From Paraburkholderia sp. BCC1884 (lineage in GTDB: Bacteria; Pseudomonadota; Gammaproteobacteria; Burkholderiales; Burkholderiaceae): DNA of 64,000 nt. The DNA lies in contig NZ_CAAJGL010000101.1 of NCBI RefSeq assembly GCF_900996225.1, forward strand, positions 496,001 through 560,000, written 5' to 3'. This document shows positions 1,552 through 10,452 of the stretch, one piece after another (the stretch's first letter is position 1; the number at the start of each line of letters is the position of its first letter). The position numbers and the translations under genes are program-made. The notes under the pieces were generated by a model. That model saw nothing but the letters and a program-made list of their open reading frames with translations. It was not told where the DNA came from and did not search any database.

Positions 1552-1869
1552 ATGACTGACACCACGCAACAACTCGCACTCGGCGGCCAGAAGATTGTCG
1601 ACGATCTGCGGGTGCTGATAAAGGACTCGGAGGAAATGCTGCGGCTTGCCGCCAACGTGCCGGGCGAGGGCGTCGACGCCTTGCGTGACAAGCTGGGCAC
1701 GCATGTGGAAACGCTGCAGTCGGCCCTTGGCGACGCGCAGCAGAATGCGCAGCGGCGCTATCGCGCGGCCACGGTCAACACCGAGCGCTACGTGCGCCAT
1801 AACCCGTGGCGCTCGATTGGTATTGCCGCGAGCGTCGGCTTTCTACTCGGCGTGCTGACTGCGCGCTAG
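1552..1869 (+). CDS. DUF883 (YqjD/ElaB-like) membrane-anchored protein
   Basis: A 105-residue protein of the YqjD/ElaB/DUF883 family. It has a long amphipathic, Asp/Glu/Ala-rich helical N-terminal part (about 10-75), then the typical RYVRHNPWRSIG junction and one C-terminal transmembrane helix (about 86-103) ending in an arginine. E. coli members sit in the inner membrane, bind ribosomes and are induced in stationary phase; transfer of that role here is inference. A good ribosome site (AGGAGCG) precedes the ATG. The gene lies behind a sigma-54 motif and is followed 72 bp later by another small membrane protein, probably in the same transcript. Confidence 0.9.
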   Translation: MTDTTQQLALGGQKIVDDLRVLIKDSEEMLRLAANVPGEGVDALRDKLGTHVETLQSALGDAQQNAQRRYRAATVNTERYVRHNPWRSIGIAASVGFLLGVLTAR

Positions 1870-1941
1870 GACGCTACGGCGTCATGGCGCAAAGCCTTGC
1901 AGTTCGACACCTATCCGTTTCAAGACGACAAGGAGTTCACG

Positions 1942-2211
1942 ATGGCACGACCCAAAATCGGCATCTTCGGCGCGCTGATGGCGCTCGGCGGTTTTCTCGC
2001 GGTCCGCTATGTGCAGCGCAGCCGCGCCACCCGCATTCCGGTGGCGCGCGAGCTGAGCCGCTGGGAGAATGAAGGCGGTGCGGTGGCAACGCCGGCGACG
2101 CCGTCTGGCGGCGCTGTCACGGCGGCCAGCGCGAGCCCGGGCGCGCACGGCGCCAACGGTTCGGCTTATACGAATGGCAATGGCGGCGCGTGGCCATTTC
2201 CGCGCAGTTGA
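1942..2211 (+). CDS. Small one-TM hypothetical protein
   Basis: An 89-residue protein of unknown function. A short basic N-terminus leads into one hydrophobic segment (about 6-22, ending FLAVRYVQRSR). A low-complexity Gly/Ala/Ser/Asn-rich tail (about 45-85) follows. The start at 1942 has AAGGAG 6 bases upstream, which beats an in-frame ATG at 1897. It follows the DUF883 gene closely in the same direction, so the two are probably co-transcribed and may share a role at the inner membrane. No family name can be assigned with confidence. Confidence 0.75.
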   Translation: MARPKIGIFGALMALGGFLAVRYVQRSRATRIPVARELSRWENEGGAVATPATPSGGAVTAASASPGAHGANGSAYTNGNGGAWPFPRS

Positions 2212-2528
2212 GCCGGTCTGCGGGGGCCGCGGCTCGTCGTGCGCGGGAGCGCACGCATTGACGGGCGATCCCCCGTCAGGCACGCTAATTCACATCGAGA
2301 TAGCCGTATAATAAGTAAATAAACAACAATACTTCGCGGGATAGGCAGTTTTTTCCGCTCATTGTTGCAATTTTGACCTAAGTCTGCAGTGCTGTGCCGA
2401 TCGGCAAATCAGCGTGCGCCCGCCGCCGGGCGTAGCGCGCTGCCTGCGAGCACGGCGCCGCGGGCGCGCATTTTAAGCATGCGTTCTTGCATGTTTCCCC
2501 ACCCACGCTTGCAGGCTTTCGAGACGCG
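2212..2528. other. Leader of the second sigma-54 activator gene (317 bp, no gene)
   Basis: A GC-rich first half is followed by an AT-rich stretch around 2300-2370. This contains TATAAT (2307-2312), a plausible sigma-70 -10 box, but I find no good -35 box at 16-18 bp. If it is used, the leader of the activator gene would be about 210 nt long. No ORF in this stretch is convincing. Confidence 0.4.
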
Positions 2529-3929
2529 ATGCCACATGTACTGATTGTCGACGACGACGCGAGTACCCGCGAGGCGCTTTCCGCCATCATCGGGGAAGAC
2601 GGCCTGACTACCGCCACCGCAGGCGATCTGCGCGAAGCGCGCATTCAACTGGTCCGGCAGATGCCGGACGTCGTCTTTACGGACCTGAAGCTGCCTGATG
2701 GCAGTGGGGTCGATCTGTTCGAAGATCTCGATCCGCGCTCCGGCGTGGAAGTGATCGTGATTACCGGCCACGCCACGGTCGAGTCGGCCGTCAATGCGCT
2801 GAAGATGGGCGCCACCGACTATCTGGTCAAGCCGATCAACATGCAGCGCGTCAAGGCGATCCTGTCGCGCCTGCCGCGCGCCGGCGACCTGAAGGCGGAA
2901 ATCGGCACTCTGCGCGGCGAGTTGCGCCGCATGGGCCGTTTCGGTTTGATGCTCGGCAATTCGCCGGCGATGCAGGAGGTCTATGACCAGATCGGCCGTG
3001 TCGCGCCGACGGCGGCCTCGGTCATGCTGGTGGGCGAGTCGGGCACCGGCAAGGAAGTCGCCGCGCAGACGCTGCACGAACTCAGCTTGCGTCGCAAGCA
3101 CGCGTTTCTCGCGGTCAACTGCGGCGCGATCTCGCCGAATTTGATCGAATCGGAAATGTTCGGCCACGAGCGCGGTTCGTTCACGGGCGCGGATCGTCAG
3201 CACAAGGGTTATTTCGAACGCGCGAATGGCGGCACGCTGTTCCTCGACGAAATTACCGAGATGCCGATCGAATTGCAGGTGAAGCTGCTGCGCGTGCTGG
3301 AAACCGGCATGTTCATGCGGGTCGGCACGACCAAGGAAATCGAAACCGATGTGCGTCTGATCGCGGCCACGAACCGCGATCCCGAGCAGGCGGTGCTCGA
3401 AGGCAAGCTGCGGCTCGACTTGTACCATCGCCTGAACGTGTTTCCGATCAGCCTGCCGCCGCTGCGCGATCGCGGCAAAGACGTTGAACTGCTCGCTCAG
3501 GCTTTCCTCGACGAACTCAACGAACGCCACAGCACGAAGAAGCATTTTCCCGCCGCCGTGAAGGAAATGCTGATGTCGTATCCGTGGCCGGGCAATGTGC
3601 GCGAGTTGAAGAACTACGTGCAACGCGCGCACATCATGTCGGGAACGGACTCGGACAGCACGGCGACGGTGCCGTTGCAGATCACGCTGTCCAAGCCCGC
3701 CGCCGGTACGGCGATCACGATTCCGTTCGGCACGTCGCTCGCCGAAGCGGACCGTCAGCTGATTCTGGCCACGCTCGAGCAATGCGGCGGGGTGAAGACG
3801 CGGGCGGCCGAGATTCTCGGCATCAGCCTGAAGACGCTCTACAACCGCCTGGTCGAGTACGGCAACGACGCGCGTGAAGACGCCGACGCCGCCGACGAAT
3901 CGCGCGCCTTGGGCGGGGCGGACGCCTAA
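2529..3929 (+). CDS. Sigma-54-dependent response regulator (NtrC family)
   Basis: A 466-residue NtrC-type activator. The receiver domain spans about 1-115, with the acidic triad VDDD near residue 8, phospho-acceptor Asp52 (FTDLKLPDG) and Lys101 (LVKP). The AAA+ domain has Walker A VGESGTGKE (about 168-176) and sigma-54 loop GSFTGA (216-221). A C-terminal Fis-type helix-turn-helix ends in SLKTLYNRLVEYG. ATG 2529 was chosen because MPHVLIVDD is a normal receiver start; the in-frame start at 2487 adds 14 unrelated residues. No histidine kinase lies nearby, so it is an orphan regulator. Its recognition helix is nearly identical to that of the receiver-less activator at 185-1240, so both may read the same operators. 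Confidence 0.95.
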   Translation: MPHVLIVDDDASTREALSAIIGEDGLTTATAGDLREARIQLVRQMPDVVFTDLKLPDGSGVDLFEDLDPRSGVEVIVITGHATVESAVNALKMGATDYLVKPINMQRVKAILSRLPRAGDLKAEIGTLRGELRRMGRFGLMLGNSPAMQEVYDQIGRVAPTAASVMLVGESGTGKEVAAQTLHELSLRRKHAFLAVNCGAISPNLIESEMFGHERGSFTGADRQHKGYFERANGGTLFLDEITEMPIELQVKLLRVLETGMFMRVGTTKEIETDVRLIAATNRDPEQAVLEGKLRLDLYHRLNVFPISLPPLRDRGKDVELLAQAFLDELNERHSTKKHFPAAVKEMLMSYPWPGNVRELKNYVQRAHIMSGTDSDSTATVPLQITLSKPAAGTAITIPFGTSLAEADRQLILATLEQCGGVKTRAAEILGISLKTLYNRLVEYGNDAREDADAADESRALGGADA

Positions 3930-3967: not shown

Positions 3968-3983
3968 CGGCACACGCCTTGCT
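3968..3983 (+). promoter_or_regulatory. Sigma-54 (-24/-12) promoter of the proline-rich gene
   Basis: CGGCACACGCCTTGCT fits TGGCACG-N4-TTGCW at 10 of 12 defined positions. GG (3969) and GC (3981) start exactly 12 apart. The predicted start is near 3994, which leaves a 24-nt leader containing an AACGAGG ribosome site before the ATG at 4018. It lies 39 bp after the stop codon of a sigma-54 activator gene. Confidence 0.75.
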
Positions 3984-4017: not shown

Positions 4018-4254
4018 ATGCCGGACTACGCTGCCGCTCCTACGCTTTCCCCGACCCAGCACCTGCATCGCCCCGAGCCGATCGAGCCGCCTTCGCCGCC
4101 GCCGATCGCGCCGCCGAGTCCCGGCGAGCCCGATACCATTCCGATCCCCAGTCCCGATCCGGGTCCGCAACCGATCGAACCCATCGAGCCGGTTGCGCCG
4201 CCGATCGGCGACCCGCCGCCGCAGCCTACGCAGACGCCACAAGCTAGCCTGTAA
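4018..4254 (+). CDS. Proline-rich small hypothetical protein
   Basis: A 78-residue protein, roughly one-third proline, built from repeats of the type P-I-E-P, P-S-P and P-P-I. There is no signal peptide, cysteine or membrane segment, so it is probably extended (polyproline II) and cytoplasmic. The start at 4018 follows an AACGAGG ribosome site. The direct -24/-12 promoter and the position right behind a sigma-54 response regulator imply it is a target of that regulator. I recognise no family. The codon usage is GC-rich like its neighbours, and the upstream signals argue that it is a genuine gene. Confidence 0.65.
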   Translation: MPDYAAAPTLSPTQHLHRPEPIEPPSPPPIAPPSPGEPDTIPIPSPDPGPQPIEPIEPVAPPIGDPPPQPTQTPQASL

Positions 4255-4445: not shown

Positions 4446-4658
4446 ATGAGACACCCAGCATTGCGCCGTTCGGCGCGCCACTCGAAGCGCGACTCGCGGC
4501 CAGGCGGCGCGCAGGGCGCTCAACCGGCACCGGTTGACCCGTCCGCGCAGAACCGCGTCGCGCCTGACGCCCCGCCGGACGGCGAGTACAACCAGGGCGG
4601 CGTACGGCCCGAAGGGCTGGACTATCAGCGCGATCTGGGCTCCGAGCAGGACGCCTGA
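4446..4658 (+). CDS. Small basic hypothetical protein
   Basis: A 70-residue hydrophilic protein. An Arg/Ser/His-rich N-terminus (residues 1-20) leads to a Pro/Ala/Gln-rich middle and an acidic C-terminus (GLDYQRDLGSEQDA). No membrane segment or known motif is present, and it is likely disordered. A strong ribosome site (GGAGGC, 7 nt before ATG) supports translation. It sits between the proline-rich gene and otsA and is followed by a UUCG-loop terminator, so it seems to be its own unit. A weak sigma-54-like motif in the leader (near 4294) lacks the GG doublet and is not counted. Confidence 0.65.
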   Translation: MRHPALRRSARHSKRDSRPGGAQGAQPAPVDPSAQNRVAPDAPPDGEYNQGGVRPEGLDYQRDLGSEQDA

Positions 4659-4719
4659 CAGGCTTGGCGGCCAGTAGCGAGATTGCTGGTTTCGTCAGAC
4701 AAAGCAGAAAAAATTTCTT

Positions 4720-4747
4720 CGCGACGCTTCGGCATCGCGCGTTTTTG
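4720..4747 (+). terminator. Rho-independent terminator after the 4446 gene
   Basis: Stem CGCGACGC / GCATCGCG (one mismatch) is closed by a C-UUCG-G tetraloop and followed by CGTTTTTG. It separates the small basic protein gene from the otsA promoter. Confidence 0.65.
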
Positions 4748-4795
4748 CTCGTTCGTCACATTTGCATACATTTTTATTTCCGATATGTCGTAAAA

Positions 4796-4811
4796 AGGCA
4801 CGCGACTTGCA
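4796..4811 (+). promoter_or_regulatory. Sigma-54 (-24/-12) promoter of otsA
   Basis: AGGCACGCGACTTGCA matches the sigma-54 consensus TGGCACG-N4-TTGCW at 11 of 12 defined positions, missing only the first T. GG (4797) and GC (4809) start exactly 12 apart. The predicted start is near 4822 and gives a 47-nt leader with a GGTGGAG ribosome site before otsA. The flanking DNA is AT-rich, as is usual for regulated promoters. Confidence 0.82.
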
Positions 4812-4869
4812 TGCACCTTTTTGGCGAATATCCGTATGCAACGAAACAACTGAACTAGGTGGAGCACCA

Positions 4870-6303
4870 ATGAGCAGACTGATCGTGGTATCGAATCGTG
4901 TCGCACCGACGCAGGAAGGCCGCCCCGCAGCTGGCGGCTTGGCGATCGGCGTACTGGACGCGCTTAAGGAAACCGGCGGGGTCTGGTTCGGCTGGAGCGG
5001 TGAGACGGTGAGCGAGCCGTCCTCGCCGGTGATCGAGAAGCAAGGCAATGTGACGTACGCGACGGTGGGCCTCACCAAGCGCGACTACGACCAGTATTAC
5101 CGCGGTTTTTCCAACGCGACGCTGTGGCCGACGTTCCATTACCGCAACGACCTGTCGCGCTATGACCGTCAGGAATATGCGGGCTATCAGCGCGTCAACG
5201 CGACGCTTGCGAAGCAGCTCAAGGAGTTGCTCAAGCCCGACGACATCATCTGGGTGCACGACTATCACCTGCTGCCGTTTGCGCGTTGCCTGCGCGAACT
5301 CGGCGTGAAGAATCCGATTGGCTTCTTCCTGCATATTCCGTTTCCCGTGCCGGAAGTACTGCGCACGATTCCGCCGCACGAAGAACTGGTCAAGGCGATG
5401 TGCAGCTACGACGTGATCGGCTTCCAGACGGAAGCGGATCGCCAGTCGTTCGTCGACTTCATCGAGCGCGGCCAGCACGGCACGTCGAGCGAAGACGGCA
5501 TGGTGCACGCGTATAACCGCTTCCTGAAAGTGGGCGCCTATCCGATCGGTATCTATCCGGATGCGATTGCCAAGGCTGCCGAACAGTTCACCGATCGCAA
5601 GCCGGTGCGTAGCCTGCGCGACGGAATGCGCGGGCGCAAGCTGATCATGAGCGTCGATCGTCTCGATTATTCGAAGGGGCTGGTGGAGCGCTTCCAGGCG
5701 TTCGAGCGTCTGCTGCTGAATGCGCCGGGTTGGCATGGACGTGTTTCGCTGGTGCAGATCGCGCCGCCGACGCGCGCCGACGTCGCGACCTACCAGCGTA
5801 TTCGTCAAACGCTCGAAGGCGAGGCGGGCCGTATCAACGGTCGTTTCGCGCAACTCGACTGGACGCCGATCCAGTATCTGAACCGCAAGTACGAGCGCAA
5901 TCTGCTGATGGCGCTGTTCCGTCAATCGCAAGTGGGCTATGTGACGCCGTTGCGCGACGGGATGAATCTGGTCGCGAAGGAGTATGTCGCCTCGCAAGAC
6001 CCGGCCGATCCGGGCGTGCTGGTGCTGTCGCAATTCGCGGGCGCCGCCGAGCAGTTGCCGGGCGCGCTGGTGGTCAATCCGTTCGATCTGTCGCAGATGG
6101 CCGAAGCGCTCGAACGTGCCTTGTCGATGCCGCTCGCCGAACGTCAGGCGCGTCACGCTGACATGATGGCGCCGATGCGTGAGAACAACCTTTCGGTGTG
6201 GCGCGACACCTTCCTCGGCGATCTGCGCAATGTCGCGACCGCCTCTTCGGTGACGGCCAAAGCGGTAAAGCTCGCTGACGTGAGGGCATCGTCGTCGCAT
6301 TGA
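4870..6303 (+). CDS. otsA: Trehalose-6-phosphate synthase
   Basis: A 477-residue GT20 glycosyltransferase that joins UDP-glucose and glucose-6-phosphate to trehalose-6-phosphate in the cytosol. It opens with the typical MSRLIVVSNRV. It contains the acceptor-site motif WVHDYHLLPF, the helix GFFLHIPFPVPEV, VDRLDYSKGL, and the nucleotide-sugar site TPLRDGMNLVAKEYVA. ATG 4870 follows GGTGGAGC. Length is normal for OtsA. No otsB phosphatase lies next to it, so that step must be encoded elsewhere. It has its own strong terminator and a near-consensus sigma-54 promoter, which suggests trehalose synthesis is switched by one of the nearby enhancer-binding proteins. Confidence 0.97.
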   Translation: MSRLIVVSNRVAPTQEGRPAAGGLAIGVLDALKETGGVWFGWSGETVSEPSSPVIEKQGNVTYATVGLTKRDYDQYYRGFSNATLWPTFHYRNDLSRYDRQEYAGYQRVNATLAKQLKELLKPDDIIWVHDYHLLPFARCLRELGVKNPIGFFLHIPFPVPEVLRTIPPHEELVKAMCSYDVIGFQTEADRQSFVDFIERGQHGTSSEDGMVHAYNRFLKVGAYPIGIYPDAIAKAAEQFTDRKPVRSLRDGMRGRKLIMSVDRLDYSKGLVERFQAFERLLLNAPGWHGRVSLVQIAPPTRADVATYQRIRQTLEGEAGRINGRFAQLDWTPIQYLNRKYERNLLMALFRQSQVGYVTPLRDGMNLVAKEYVASQDPADPGVLVLSQFAGAAEQLPGALVVNPFDLSQMAEALERALSMPLAERQARHADMMAPMRENNLSVWRDTFLGDLRNVATASSVTAKAVKLADVRASSSH

Positions 6304-6472: not shown

Positions 6473-7906
6473 CTACGCCGGTTGCGGATTGGCGCGTTGC
6501 ATCACGCGCATCGTGCTGACCACGGCCGCGACGGCCGAAAAGCCCGCGGCCACATAGAGGGCGACGATCGGTCCGCTTTGCGGCGCAATGCCGAAGATCA
6601 GCGCGACCAGCGCCGCGCCGAGCGTCTGGCCGGTCAGGCGCGCCGTGCCCAGCATGCCGCTCGCGCCGCCACTGCGATTGCGTGGCGCGGCGGACAGCAT
6701 GGTGCGGTTGTTCGGCGACTGGAAAATGCCGAAACCCGCGCCGCACAGCGCCATGCGCCAGGCAATCTGCATCGCGTCCGGGTGCGCGCCGAGCGTGGCG
6801 AGCAGCAGCAGGCCGGCCGTCATGGCCGCGAGCCCGACGCCGCCGAGCCATCCCGAAGACACCTTGTCCGACAGCACACCGGCAATCGGCGCAGCGAGGA
6901 TGATTACGGCCGGCCACGGCGTCATCAGCAAGCCGGTTTCGACCTGCGACAAGCCCAGGTTTTCCTGCAGCATGAACGGCAACGAGACGAACGCCAGCAT
7001 TTGCGCGCAGAACGAGCAGACCGACGTGCCGATCGACAGCGCGAACACTGGAATTCTCAGTAAATCGATCGGCAGCAAGGGCGCCGCCTGGGTCAGCTGG
7101 CGGCGCACGAAGAAATAACCGATCACGATCGCGCCGACGAATTCCATCAAGACGAAGCCGAGGCCTTCGCCGTGGCCGAGGCCGTCGACGGCAAAGATCA
7201 GCAGGCCGAACACGAACGCGTTCATCACCGCGCTCAGGTAGTCGTAGGGCGATTCGTGGCCGGGGTTCATCGGCAAGGCCTTGAAGCCGCCGACGATCGC
7301 CGCGATGCCGATCGGCACATTGATCGCGAAGAGCCACGGCCATGAAGCGACGGCCAGCACGCCGGAGGCGACCGTCGGTCCCACCGCCGACGACACCGCG
7401 ACCACCATCGCGTTGATCGCGACGCCGCGCCCGAGTTGCGCGGGCGGATAGATCATCCGCACGATCGCGGTGTTCACGCTCATGATGCCCGCCGCGCCGA
7501 AGCCCTGCACCACGCGGGCGAGCGCGAGCGTCGGCAGCGAGTCGGACAGCGCGCAACCGAACGACGCCACCGTGAACAGAATCAGGCCGCCCAGATAGAT
7601 GCGCCGGTAGCCGATGCGATCGCCGAGCGAAGCCAGCGGCAGCAGCGAAATGGTGATGGCGAGTTGATACGCGTTGACGACCCAGATCGAGCCGGCCGCG
7701 CTCGCGTGGAGATTGCGCGCGATGGTCGGCAGCGCGACGTTGGCGATCGCGCTGTCGAGCACGGCCAACGTCAGCGCGAGCGCGATCACGAGCATCGCCC
7801 AATAGCGCTGCGGAATTGGCAATCCTTGTTCGGTGTGGTCGGCAAGCGAGGGGTCGGCGACATCGGCGGACGCGGGGCCGTTCTTGCGCGGAGGTTGTGC
7901 GTGCAT
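6473..7906 (-). CDS. MFS transporter, DHA2 (EmrB/QacA) drug-exporter type
   Basis: A major facilitator of about 477 residues with some 14 hydrophobic segments, in the inner membrane. Motif A is present as LGDRIGYRR between helices 2 and 3. The helix 1 region LDSAIANVALPTIARNL and the helix 5 signature AVGPTVASG are typical of proton-driven drug:H+ antiporters of the EmrB/QacA group. The start at 7906 is preferred, but an ATG at 7960 would add 18 Arg-rich residues; neither has a good ribosome site. It follows the PEBP-like gene on the same strand. The substrate is unknown. Confidence 0.9.
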   Translation of the reverse strand: MHAQPPRKNGPASADVADPSLADHTEQGLPIPQRYWAMLVIALALTLAVLDSAIANVALPTIARNLHASAAGSIWVVNAYQLAITISLLPLASLGDRIGYRRIYLGGLILFTVASFGCALSDSLPTLALARVVQGFGAAGIMSVNTAIVRMIYPPAQLGRGVAINAMVVAVSSAVGPTVASGVLAVASWPWLFAINVPIGIAAIVGGFKALPMNPGHESPYDYLSAVMNAFVFGLLIFAVDGLGHGEGLGFVLMEFVGAIVIGYFFVRRQLTQAAPLLPIDLLRIPVFALSIGTSVCSFCAQMLAFVSLPFMLQENLGLSQVETGLLMTPWPAVIILAAPIAGVLSDKVSSGWLGGVGLAAMTAGLLLLATLGAHPDAMQIAWRMALCGAGFGIFQSPNNRTMLSAAPRNRSGGASGMLGTARLTGQTLGAALVALIFGIAPQSGPIVALYVAAGFSAVAAVVSTMRVMQRANPQPA

Positions 7907-8008
7907 CGATTGTTCGAGTTGTCGTGGCAGGGCTCGCCGCTCACGCGACGAACCCTGCATGCTGCTGGTAGAGATGAACCGACTGCAGGCGCGTTTTGCG
8001 TCGCCGGG

Positions 8009-8512
8009 CTACTTCAGTTCGTAAAGCCCGGTATGCGTGGTCGAGTCGAGTTCGTTCAGATGCGTCATGAAGCGCGCCACCGCGTTGGTGGTCTCCGCAT
8101 TGATCGGCAGATGCGCCACCTTCAGCGCATGCAGACGGAAAATGTAGCGGTGCGCCTTGTCGCCGCGCGGCGGCGCGGCGCCACCGAAGCCGACCGTGCC
8201 GTAGTCGTTGCGCACTTGCAGCGCGCCCTGCGGCAGGAGCGCGCCGTCGGCTTTGCCGGCGTTGCGCGGCAAGGAGCGCGCGTCCGCCGAAATGTTCACC
8301 ACGACCCAGTGCCAGAAGCCGCTGCCGGTCGGCGCGTCGGGATCGTGAACGGTGAGGGCGAAGCTTTGAGTGTCGGGCGGCGGCGCTTCCCACTGCAGCG
8401 CGGGAGAAATATTTTCGCCGTCCACGCCGAAAGCCTTGTCGTGATATTCGTGAGCTTTCGGCATGAAGCCGTTGCTGGGAAAGTCGTCCGACCAGAGACG
8501 GAAATCAGCCAT
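8009..8512 (-). CDS. YbhB/YbcL family PEBP-like protein
   Basis: A 167-residue phosphatidylethanolamine-binding-protein fold of the bacterial Raf-kinase-inhibitor-like group. Motifs are SPALQWEAPPPDTQSFAL, the ligand-pocket DPDAPTGSGFWHWVV, the GYGGAAPP-like segment GFGGAAPPRGDKAHRYIF, and a C-terminal GLYELK. It lacks a signal peptide, so it is cytosolic like E. coli YbhB. The biochemical role of the bacterial members is unsettled. ATG 8512 has AGGGAGG upstream. The MFS gene follows on the same strand after a 100-bp gap. Confidence 0.92.
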   Translation of the reverse strand: MADFRLWSDDFPSNGFMPKAHEYHDKAFGVDGENISPALQWEAPPPDTQSFALTVHDPDAPTGSGFWHWVVVNISADARSLPRNAGKADGALLPQGALQVRNDYGTVGFGGAAPPRGDKAHRYIFRLHALKVAHLPINAETTNAVARFMTHLNELDSTTHTGLYELK

Positions 8513-8691: not shown

Positions 8692-9138
8692 TCAGCCGCG
8701 CTCCTCGAAGCTCGACGCATCGCTCTTCAGCCACCCGACGAGCCGCTGCAACACACCCGCGATATCGCGATTGGCGCCGCGCAAGGCGCATTCCCACACC
8801 ACGGCGACGCGCCAGCCGTTCGCCAGCAGCGCCGCGCGCACCTTGTCGTCGTTACTGCGATTGCGGCCGATCTTGTCGCGCCAGAACTCCGGCCGAGTTT
8901 GCGGCCATTTGAAAAGAGGGCAGTCGTGACCGTGCCAGAAGCAGCCGTGCACCAGCACGACGGCGTGGTAGCGGGGCAGCACGATGTCCGGACGGCCTGG
9001 CAGATCGCGCGCGTCCAGACGGAAGCGAAAGCCCTCTCGATGGAGCAGGCTGCGGATCAGGATTTCCGGCTTGGTGTTGCGGCCGCGGATGCCGGACATC
9101 ATCCGGCTGCGCGTCGCGCTGTCGACGATATCGACCAT
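8692..9138 (-). CDS. vsr: Very short patch repair endonuclease Vsr
   Basis: A 148-residue T:G mismatch endonuclease. Vsr nicks 5' of the T in mismatches that arise when 5-methylcytosine in Dcm-type sites deaminates. The family signatures are plain: SRMMSGIRGRNTKPE at the N-terminus, LPGRPDIVLP with the catalytic Asp, and the zinc and active-site segment VHGCFWHGHDC. It lies 36 bp after the Dcm-type methylase on the same strand, the expected partner. In E. coli the two genes overlap; here they do not. No restriction endonuclease gene is nearby. Confidence 0.96.
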   Translation of the reverse strand: MVDIVDSATRSRMMSGIRGRNTKPEILIRSLLHREGFRFRLDARDLPGRPDIVLPRYHAVVLVHGCFWHGHDCPLFKWPQTRPEFWRDKIGRNRSNDDKVRAALLANGWRVAVVWECALRGANRDIAGVLQRLVGWLKSDASSFEERG

Positions 9139-9174
9139 CTCTAGCGTCGTCCGTCGGTCGTCTTGCCGGACAGT

Positions 9175-10452
9175 TCAGGCGTAAAGCGAGAGCGCTTGCT
9201 TCGAGCCACGAGGCGCCTCCTTGGCGAGCAGGTCTTGCACATGCGGGAGCATGATGCGCGCCACCTCGCGCATGACCGGCATCACCACGCTGTTGCCGAA
9301 CTGCCGGTAGGCCTGGGTGTCGCTGACCGGGATGCGGAAGGTGTCGGGGAAACCCATCAGCCGCGCGCACTCGCGCGGCGTGAGGCGTCGCGGACGCAGC
9401 GCTTCGCCTTGATAGACGAGGATTTCGCTTCCGTCCTTGTGATAGCGCGCCGACAGCGTACGGGTGACGCTATGCGGATACGCCATGCCGAAACCAAAGC
9501 CGTTACCCGCCGCGCGATGCTTTTCCGCGTAGTTCTGCAGGTAGGTCCAGAGGTTCGATGTGAGCGTGTACTTCGGCTGGACGTGACGGGCAGTGTGGTC
9601 GAAGAAGCGATCGTGGTCCCATGCCAGCACCGGCTCGCTGCCGTCGGTGCGATGCAGGATCGAGCCGAGGCGCGGGCCGCTTTCGGGTAACTGCAGATCG
9701 TCCCAGGAAAATCCGGTCTTGCCGCGAAAGCCGACGATGATGATCCGCTCCCGATGCTGCGGCGTGAAATGCTGGCCGTCGACGACCCGGTAATGCACTT
9801 CGTAGCCGAGTTCGTCGCGCAAGGTTTGCAGGATCACGTCGAAGGTGCGGCCTTTATCGTGCGACAGCAGGTTCTTCACGTTCTCCAACAGGAACGCGGC
9901 CGGTCGTTTCGCGGCGATGATCCGCGCGACGTCGAAAAAGAGCGTGCCCTGGGTCGTGCACTCGAAGCCGTGCGGGCGGCCCATTGCGTTCTTCTTGCTG
10001 ACGCCGGCAATCGAAAACGGCTGGCAGGGAAAGCCGCCGAGCAACACGTCATGGCTCGGCACGTCTTCGGCGGGGAAGGAGACGATGTCGCCGATCAGCG
10101 CGTGTTCGCCGCCGCCGGGATAGTTTTCGCGGTAGGTCTTGGTGGAAAAGTCGTTCCACTCGCTGGTAAAGACGCACTCTCCGCCATGCGCCTCGAAACC
10201 CATGCGGATTCCGCCGATGCCGGCGAACAGGTCGACAAAACGGAACTGGGCGTCGTGTCCGGCGCCTTTCGTGCGCGCCGTGTGCTGCAGCAGGTCGCGC
10301 AGCGCGGGCTCGAGCATCGCCGGGCAAGGCGTCTCGCCCTTTTCCCAACGGCGCACCGTCTTGATGTCCTTGCCGACATGCGCGGCGATTTCGCGTTGGG
10401 TGAAGCGGGTGCGCGCCTGCTGGAGCAGTTCAAACGGTGCGGCGAGGGTCAC
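9175..10452 (-). CDS. dcm: DNA (cytosine-5) methyltransferase, Dcm type
   Basis: A 425-residue C5-cytosine methylase using S-adenosylmethionine. An N-terminal helix-turn-helix of about 60 residues ([23 protein letters not shown]), as in E. coli Dcm, precedes motif I ([15 protein letters not shown]). Then come the catalytic Pro-Cys motif IV (GGFPCQPFS), the ENV motif VI (LLENVKNL), motif VIII (QHRERI) and the terminal motif IX/X region ([11 protein letters not shown]). The start is GTG at 10452 with AAGGAC 4 nt upstream. Methylation target is not readable from sequence, but pairing with Vsr suggests a CCWGG-like site. It appears to be an orphan methylase. Confidence 0.95.

Follow-up and report, generated by a model that had tools for sequence, protein, structure and literature searches.

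The stretch of DNA analyzed here (64 kb, referred to as the window) is part of a 7.5 Mb genome and carries, at 4870–6303 on the plus strand, a gene for trehalose-6-phosphate synthase, otsA. Its product matches PF00982 and scores 604.7 bits against TIGR02400, above the cut-off of 564.85, which places it in the OtsA family; its closest named relatives, 96–98% identical, belong to Paraburkholderia. Upstream of otsA lie two genes for enhancer-binding proteins, EBP1 at 185–1240 on the minus strand and EBP2 at 2529–3929 on the plus strand. Both proteins contain a AAA+ sigma-54 activation domain and a Fis-type helix-turn-helix (PF00158, PF25601 and PF02954), together with Walker A (GESGTGKE), GSFTGA and Walker B (LFLDE) motifs, and are thus members of the enhancer-binding protein class. 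That the gene is otsA and that two such activator genes precede it had been proposed in an original prediction from the sequence, and the profile searches bear out both calls. EBP2 begins with a receiver domain (PF00072, E = 5.5e-25) and is an NtrC-type response regulator; Pfam finds no domain ahead of the AAA+ module of EBP1, which therefore has neither an NtrC-type receiver nor any other recognized input domain. Neither protein reaches an NCBIfam equivalog cut-off (NtrC, AtoC, NifA, PEP-CTERM regulator and others) among the 25 matches listed for each, out of 28 and 108 matched families in all, and no gene next to the pair in the window was recognized as encoding a kinase.

Facing away from EBP1 is a DUF883 gene (1552–1869, plus strand; PF05957 and PF19029). 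Differences across loci fall mostly at its third codon positions (1117, 643 and 2970 at the first, second and third, respectively), as expected of a real gene. The best NCBIfam match of its product is ElaB, at 43.5 bits and below the cut-off of 139. Downstream of it is the small open reading frame (ORF) p1942 (1942–2211, plus strand), which has a homologue in 104 of 112 loci and possibly belongs to the same operon. Between EBP2 and otsA are the small proline-rich ORF p4018 (4018–4254, plus strand; homologue in 36 of 112 loci), for which Pfam and NCBIfam profile searches gave no match, and p4446 (4446–4658, plus strand), a small conserved ORF directly upstream of otsA with a homologue in 110 of 112 loci. 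Codon positions in p4018 follow the same trend as in the DUF883 gene (38, 14 and 100 differences), from only four ungapped comparisons. The gene order EBP1 (divergent), DUF883, p1942, EBP2, p4018, p4446, otsA is syntenic across Paraburkholderia and Caballeronia loci, with the DUF883 gene and p4018 undetected in some of them. Elsewhere in the window, at 8692–10452, translations reveal adjacent ORFs resembling a Vsr-type mismatch endonuclease and a DNA cytosine methyltransferase.

A conserved −24/−12 element precedes otsA

The otsA leader contains a −24/−12 sigma-54 promoter element, AGGCACGCGACTTGCA, at 4796–4811 on the plus strand. It consists of GGCACG, a CGAC spacer and TTGC with an A on either side, and agrees with 11 of the 12 defined positions of TGGCACGNNNNTTGCW, the canonical consensus being TGGCACG-N4-TTGCW. 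The GG (4797–4798) and the GC (4809–4810) are 12 bases apart, the spacing of sigma-54 promoters, and our re-scan returned the same match and spacing as first reported. The genome encodes RpoN twice (G000:C90:715840-716307 and G000:C68:1587241-1587711). Matches of this quality are no more frequent than chance: allowing one mismatch, 1 was observed in the window versus 0.90 expected, and exact core matches in the whole genome number 38 versus 30 with a reversed-pattern control. Because the motif occurs at chance level, the sequence match alone cannot settle the promoter call, and we rejected motif counting as evidence for the element. When the 211 bases preceding otsA were shuffled 2000 times, an equally good core match turned up in 0.15% of the shuffles.

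What places the otsA element far above chance, and confirms it as real, is its conservation. Alignment of otsA leaders across Paraburkholderia had been suggested as a check in the original prediction, and in 103 distinct leaders located next to EBP2 the eight core bases prove invariant at fixed spacing: the only invariant columns are GGCA (4797–4800) and TTGC (4807–4810), with variation both in the four-base spacer and on either side of the element. The otsA start codon is present in all 103 leaders and was left out of this count because it is misaligned in some rows. Omitted from the set are three duplicate leaders (L005, L009 and L052) and seven loci with no EBP2 match in the fetched stretch (L178, L259, L264, L265, L266, L010 and L012). 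GGCA-N6-TTGC lies within 150 bases of the otsA start codon in 103/103 leaders, compared with at most 2/103 for any other spacing of the two words from 2 to 10 and at most 1 for the reversed words, which points to selection on the spacing. In a draw of 97 genomes from the genus, 96 have a close otsA (G019 has none), and all 96, the window's genome among them, carry GGYA-N6-TTGC. Across the 112 loci the element was detected in 108, versus 5 for a reversed-sequence control; the four misses are L265, L266, L010 and L012, in all of which EBP1 and EBP2 went undetected.

Other otsA genes provide a control. Five genomes searched for all copies have three otsA paralogues each, only one of which carries the element, a restriction that the original prediction had missed: it is present in the EBP-linked copy in 5/5 cases and absent from the remaining paralogues in 10/10. 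The single otsB of these genomes adjoins a different otsA paralogue and not the EBP-linked copy. Among 69 named loci with an otsA below 75% identity, there is one core match of 10 or better, at L020, and this match is itself without TTGC.

The element accompanies the activator pair

A draw of 200 genomes from the family yielded 89 that could be scored and have an otsA of the kind found at this locus; EBP2 near otsA is 83–99% identical in this draw. Genomes with the EBP pair have the otsA element in 65 of 66 cases and those without the pair in 3 of 23, an association with a Fisher P of 9e-16 when shared ancestry is ignored. G256, with a truncated leader, was left out of the comparison, as were family genomes with a best otsA match of 60–67%, except G104 (66%), which is counted. 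Absence of the pair in genera g12 (probably Burkholderia) and g9 was taken from the absence of pair matches and from EBP2 matches of at most 61%. The invariant core in 103 leaders, and an element that follows the EBP pair across genera, support the sigma-54 promoter reading of the original prediction.

The departures from this pattern are few. In G102, which has the pair, an element lies farther than 200 bases from otsA, about 320 bases upstream and ahead of a p4018-like ORF. In G174, G220 and G266 (loci L264, L288 and L289; probable Burkholderia), an element matching 10 or 11 of 12 positions precedes otsA although searches detected no EBP pair, and in these genomes it may depend on a different activator. 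In G254, a fragmented draft genome of the Caballeronia genus, EBP1 is present, EBP2 was not found, and the GG of the element is AA. As a separate observation, the G102 locus has two −24/−12-like elements about 60 bases apart and pointing apart (L313:423, minus strand, and 499, plus strand), one of them before the p4018-like ORF and otsA.

Further elements in the same locus

Motif scanning detected two more −24/−12 elements on the plus strand, each matching 10 of 12 positions: CGGCACACGCCTTGCT at 3968–3983, before p4018, and GGGCATGCCGTTTGCA at 1452–1467, before the DUF883 gene; the original prediction had overlooked both. The first is kept in 36/36 loci with p4018 (reversed-sequence control 1; P = 0.0025 in shuffles). 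The second is found in 57 of 63 loci, a set that leaves out DUF883 loci below 60% identity or aligned late (8/71), with a reversed-sequence control of 3; it is conserved column by column across 37 aligned sequences and has a P of 0.019 in shuffles. Three of the six gaps in the window hold a match of 10/12 or better, an outcome seen in 0/2000 shuffles. Of the other gaps, that before p4446 has the motif in 1/110 loci versus 6 in the control, that before p1942 in 11/103 versus 7, which is background level, and that before EBP2 in 8/105 versus 1, which is slightly raised and still near background. We considered sigma-54 promoters belonging to p4446 and p1942 themselves and rejected them, the motif there being near background.

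The top palindrome in the 37-sequence alignment is a perfect dyad, GAGATA-N14-TATCTC, at 1295–1320 between the divergent EBP1 and DUF883 genes. It may be an activator or autoregulation site, and is a weak candidate: with up to 2 mismatches it occurs near EBP1 only 11 times over 105 loci, and within the same limit it was never found in otsA leaders. Profile comparison between the promoters of otsA and the DUF883 gene yielded no more than a half match resembling TATCTCA, immediately upstream of the otsA −24. Neither this comparison nor the dyad scan detected a shared site, and we do not claim a common activator site for the two promoters.

Discussion

Trehalose synthesis is a textbook stress output of sigma-S, and otsBA of Escherichia coli is an RpoS (sigma-S) target. 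The otsA described here encodes the same enzyme, presumably with the same stress role, but is preceded by a sigma-54 element and has no otsB beside it. Promoter and activators alike belong to known kinds. In sequence, spacing and nearby enhancer-binding protein genes the element resembles canonical −24/−12 promoters; it differs from them in having trehalose synthesis as its target, and the start and RpoN dependence given for it here are predicted. The DUF883 product shares its domains with the ElaB/YqjD stress proteins and has ElaB as its best match, but the score is below the ElaB cut-off and a sigma-54 element precedes the gene here. EBP2 has the layout of NtrC-family response regulators, and both EBPs keep the sigma-54 contact motif, like NtrC-family and input-less activators. 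As described in PMC5552954, the exopolysaccharide regulator BerB of Burkholderia cenocepacia likewise has no recognized input domain, and EBP1 is likened to it by description only. Where EBP1 and EBP2 depart from BerB and the NtrC family is in forming a conserved divergent pair that flanks its own putative targets.

What the computations show directly is that there are three elements, that these are conserved, that the gene order is kept and that the otsA element co-occurs with the EBP pair; RpoN dependence, the acting EBP, a stress or host signal and all of the biochemistry are our inference. Dependence of otsA on sigma-54 is very strongly indicated, and it is reasonably likely that the local EBPs are the activators. 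The reading that we favor, and hold with good confidence, is that 4796–4811 is the otsA sigma-54 promoter, opened by EBP2 and/or EBP1 within a local sigma-54 stress module. RpoN polymerase would bind the element as a closed complex, with a predicted transcription start near 4822 that would leave some 48 bases of 5′ leader on the otsA transcript. EBP2 and/or EBP1, acting as a hexamer, would then open the complex by ATP hydrolysis, with signalling through the EBP2 receiver or by abundance. The same activators would most likely drive the DUF883 gene (from 1452–1467) and p4018 (from 3968–3983). OtsA, the ElaB-like protein and p4018 would be made together, and the locus would amount to one small sigma-54 stress module with trehalose synthesis as an output.

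The strongest alternative, which we nonetheless consider unlikely, is that otsA is transcribed mainly from a promoter of the housekeeping or RpoS type, the sigma-54 element contributing only a conditional and minor input. The precedent of E. coli otsBA points this way, as does a conserved T-rich block in the otsA leader alignment at about 4750–4778. In Burkholderia insecticola, moreover, trehalose genes are expressed more highly in stationary than in exponential phase, as an RpoS gene would be, according to the text of PMC10100943. However, no sigma-70-like promoter match was found in 4640–4900, a scan that RpoS −10 elements, being weaker, could escape, and outside the sigma-54 core only the start codon is invariant among the leaders.

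Somewhat less probable again is that otsA depends on sigma-54 with its activator encoded elsewhere, such as NtrC or a stress-specific EBP, the neighboring EBPs serving only the DUF883 gene and p4018. Other activators do exist in the genome, given its 16 strong PF00158 matches (172 bits or more), and three genomes have the element without the pair (G174, G220 and G266); nor was a common upstream site for the promoters found. Against this, the element is present in 65 of the 66 genomes that have the pair and missing from 20 of the 23 that do not, the synteny of EBP2 and otsA is kept, and in G254, albeit one fragmented draft genome, the element has lost its GG where EBP2 was not found. A chance resemblance or another kind of element such as a hairpin is very improbable, for although the motif frequency is near chance in window and genome and a terminator-like hairpin overlaps the element on the minus strand, it is exactly the sigma-54 core that is invariant across 103 leaders, the hairpin needs bases of the spacer and flanks, which vary, the listed upstream genes that end toward otsA are all on the plus strand, and the locus has two sister elements. 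A terminator reading was accordingly rejected, the hairpin matching the minus strand only.

If the favored reading of 4796–4811 as an activator-opened sigma-54 promoter is right, it may bear on an insect symbiosis. Burkholderia insecticola is now placed in Caballeronia. In three genomes of probably the same genus (G172, G269 and G204), the copy with the element is the first otsA on the chromosome and the otsB-linked copy the third. The text of PMC10100943 describes three otsA genes in B. insecticola, of which BRPE64_ACDS08420 is induced 12-fold in the insect host; the otsA deletion strain is reported to tolerate osmotic stress poorly and to compete less well early in infection. BRPE64_ACDS08420 is the first of three chromosomal otsA genes and the third adjoins otsB, an order shared with the three genomes. 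Because the map order matches, the host-induced gene is probably the orthologue of the sigma-54 otsA, an identity by map order only, and PMC10100943 names no promoter or sigma-54 in the text available. The element would thus give a simple and testable explanation for the 12-fold induction of one of the three otsA paralogues in the insect (PMC10100943).

The original prediction had regarded sigma-54 control of trehalose synthesis as unusual, and in the main texts of the literature examined we found no report of sigma-54 control of otsA; such a report could stand unremarked in a supplementary RpoN-regulon table. Papers on Myxococcus, Rhizobium etli and Pseudomonas syringae that cover both topics describe no sigma-54 control of otsA in their main text, and the main text of the RpoN study of P. 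phymatum (PMC5979394) has 0 occurrences of trehalose or otsA. Across an entire clade of bacteria associated with soil, plants and insects, one otsA copy appears to be under sigma-54. Given a strictly conserved sigma-54 promoter and two adjacent sigma-54 activator genes, activation of otsA in soil and symbiotic Paraburkholderia and their relatives probably follows another route than that established for E. coli; sigma-54 needs a dedicated activator and therefore a defined signal. Two uncharacterized activators and two further candidate target genes can now be named alongside otsA.

More tentatively, and with the balance somewhat against so broad a proposal, a dedicated sigma-54 stress module may be ancestral in much of the family. 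In this scheme the two members of a conserved activator pair, one bearing a phosphorylatable receiver and the other without an input domain, might form a mixed oligomer and would turn on trehalose synthesis together with an ElaB-like protein and a proline-rich small product; most Burkholderia proper would have lost the module as a whole, and symbionts would use it when entering a host. If true, sigma-54 would here control functions that in enterics fall to sigma-S.

In genera g3, g24 and g18, relatives of EBP1 and EBP2 that are 57–72% identical stand head to head, unaccompanied by this otsA. At one g18 locus (L318), rpoN (1772–3403, minus strand) adjoins the EBP pair and has a 10/12 sigma-54 element just before it, at 3415 on the minus strand; also present are a PAS histidine kinase gene (6853–8034), a proline-rich ORF and a gene for a BON-domain protein that has an element of its own (9051). 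The arrangement at this single g18 locus fits a small sigma-54 module that is older than its link to otsA.
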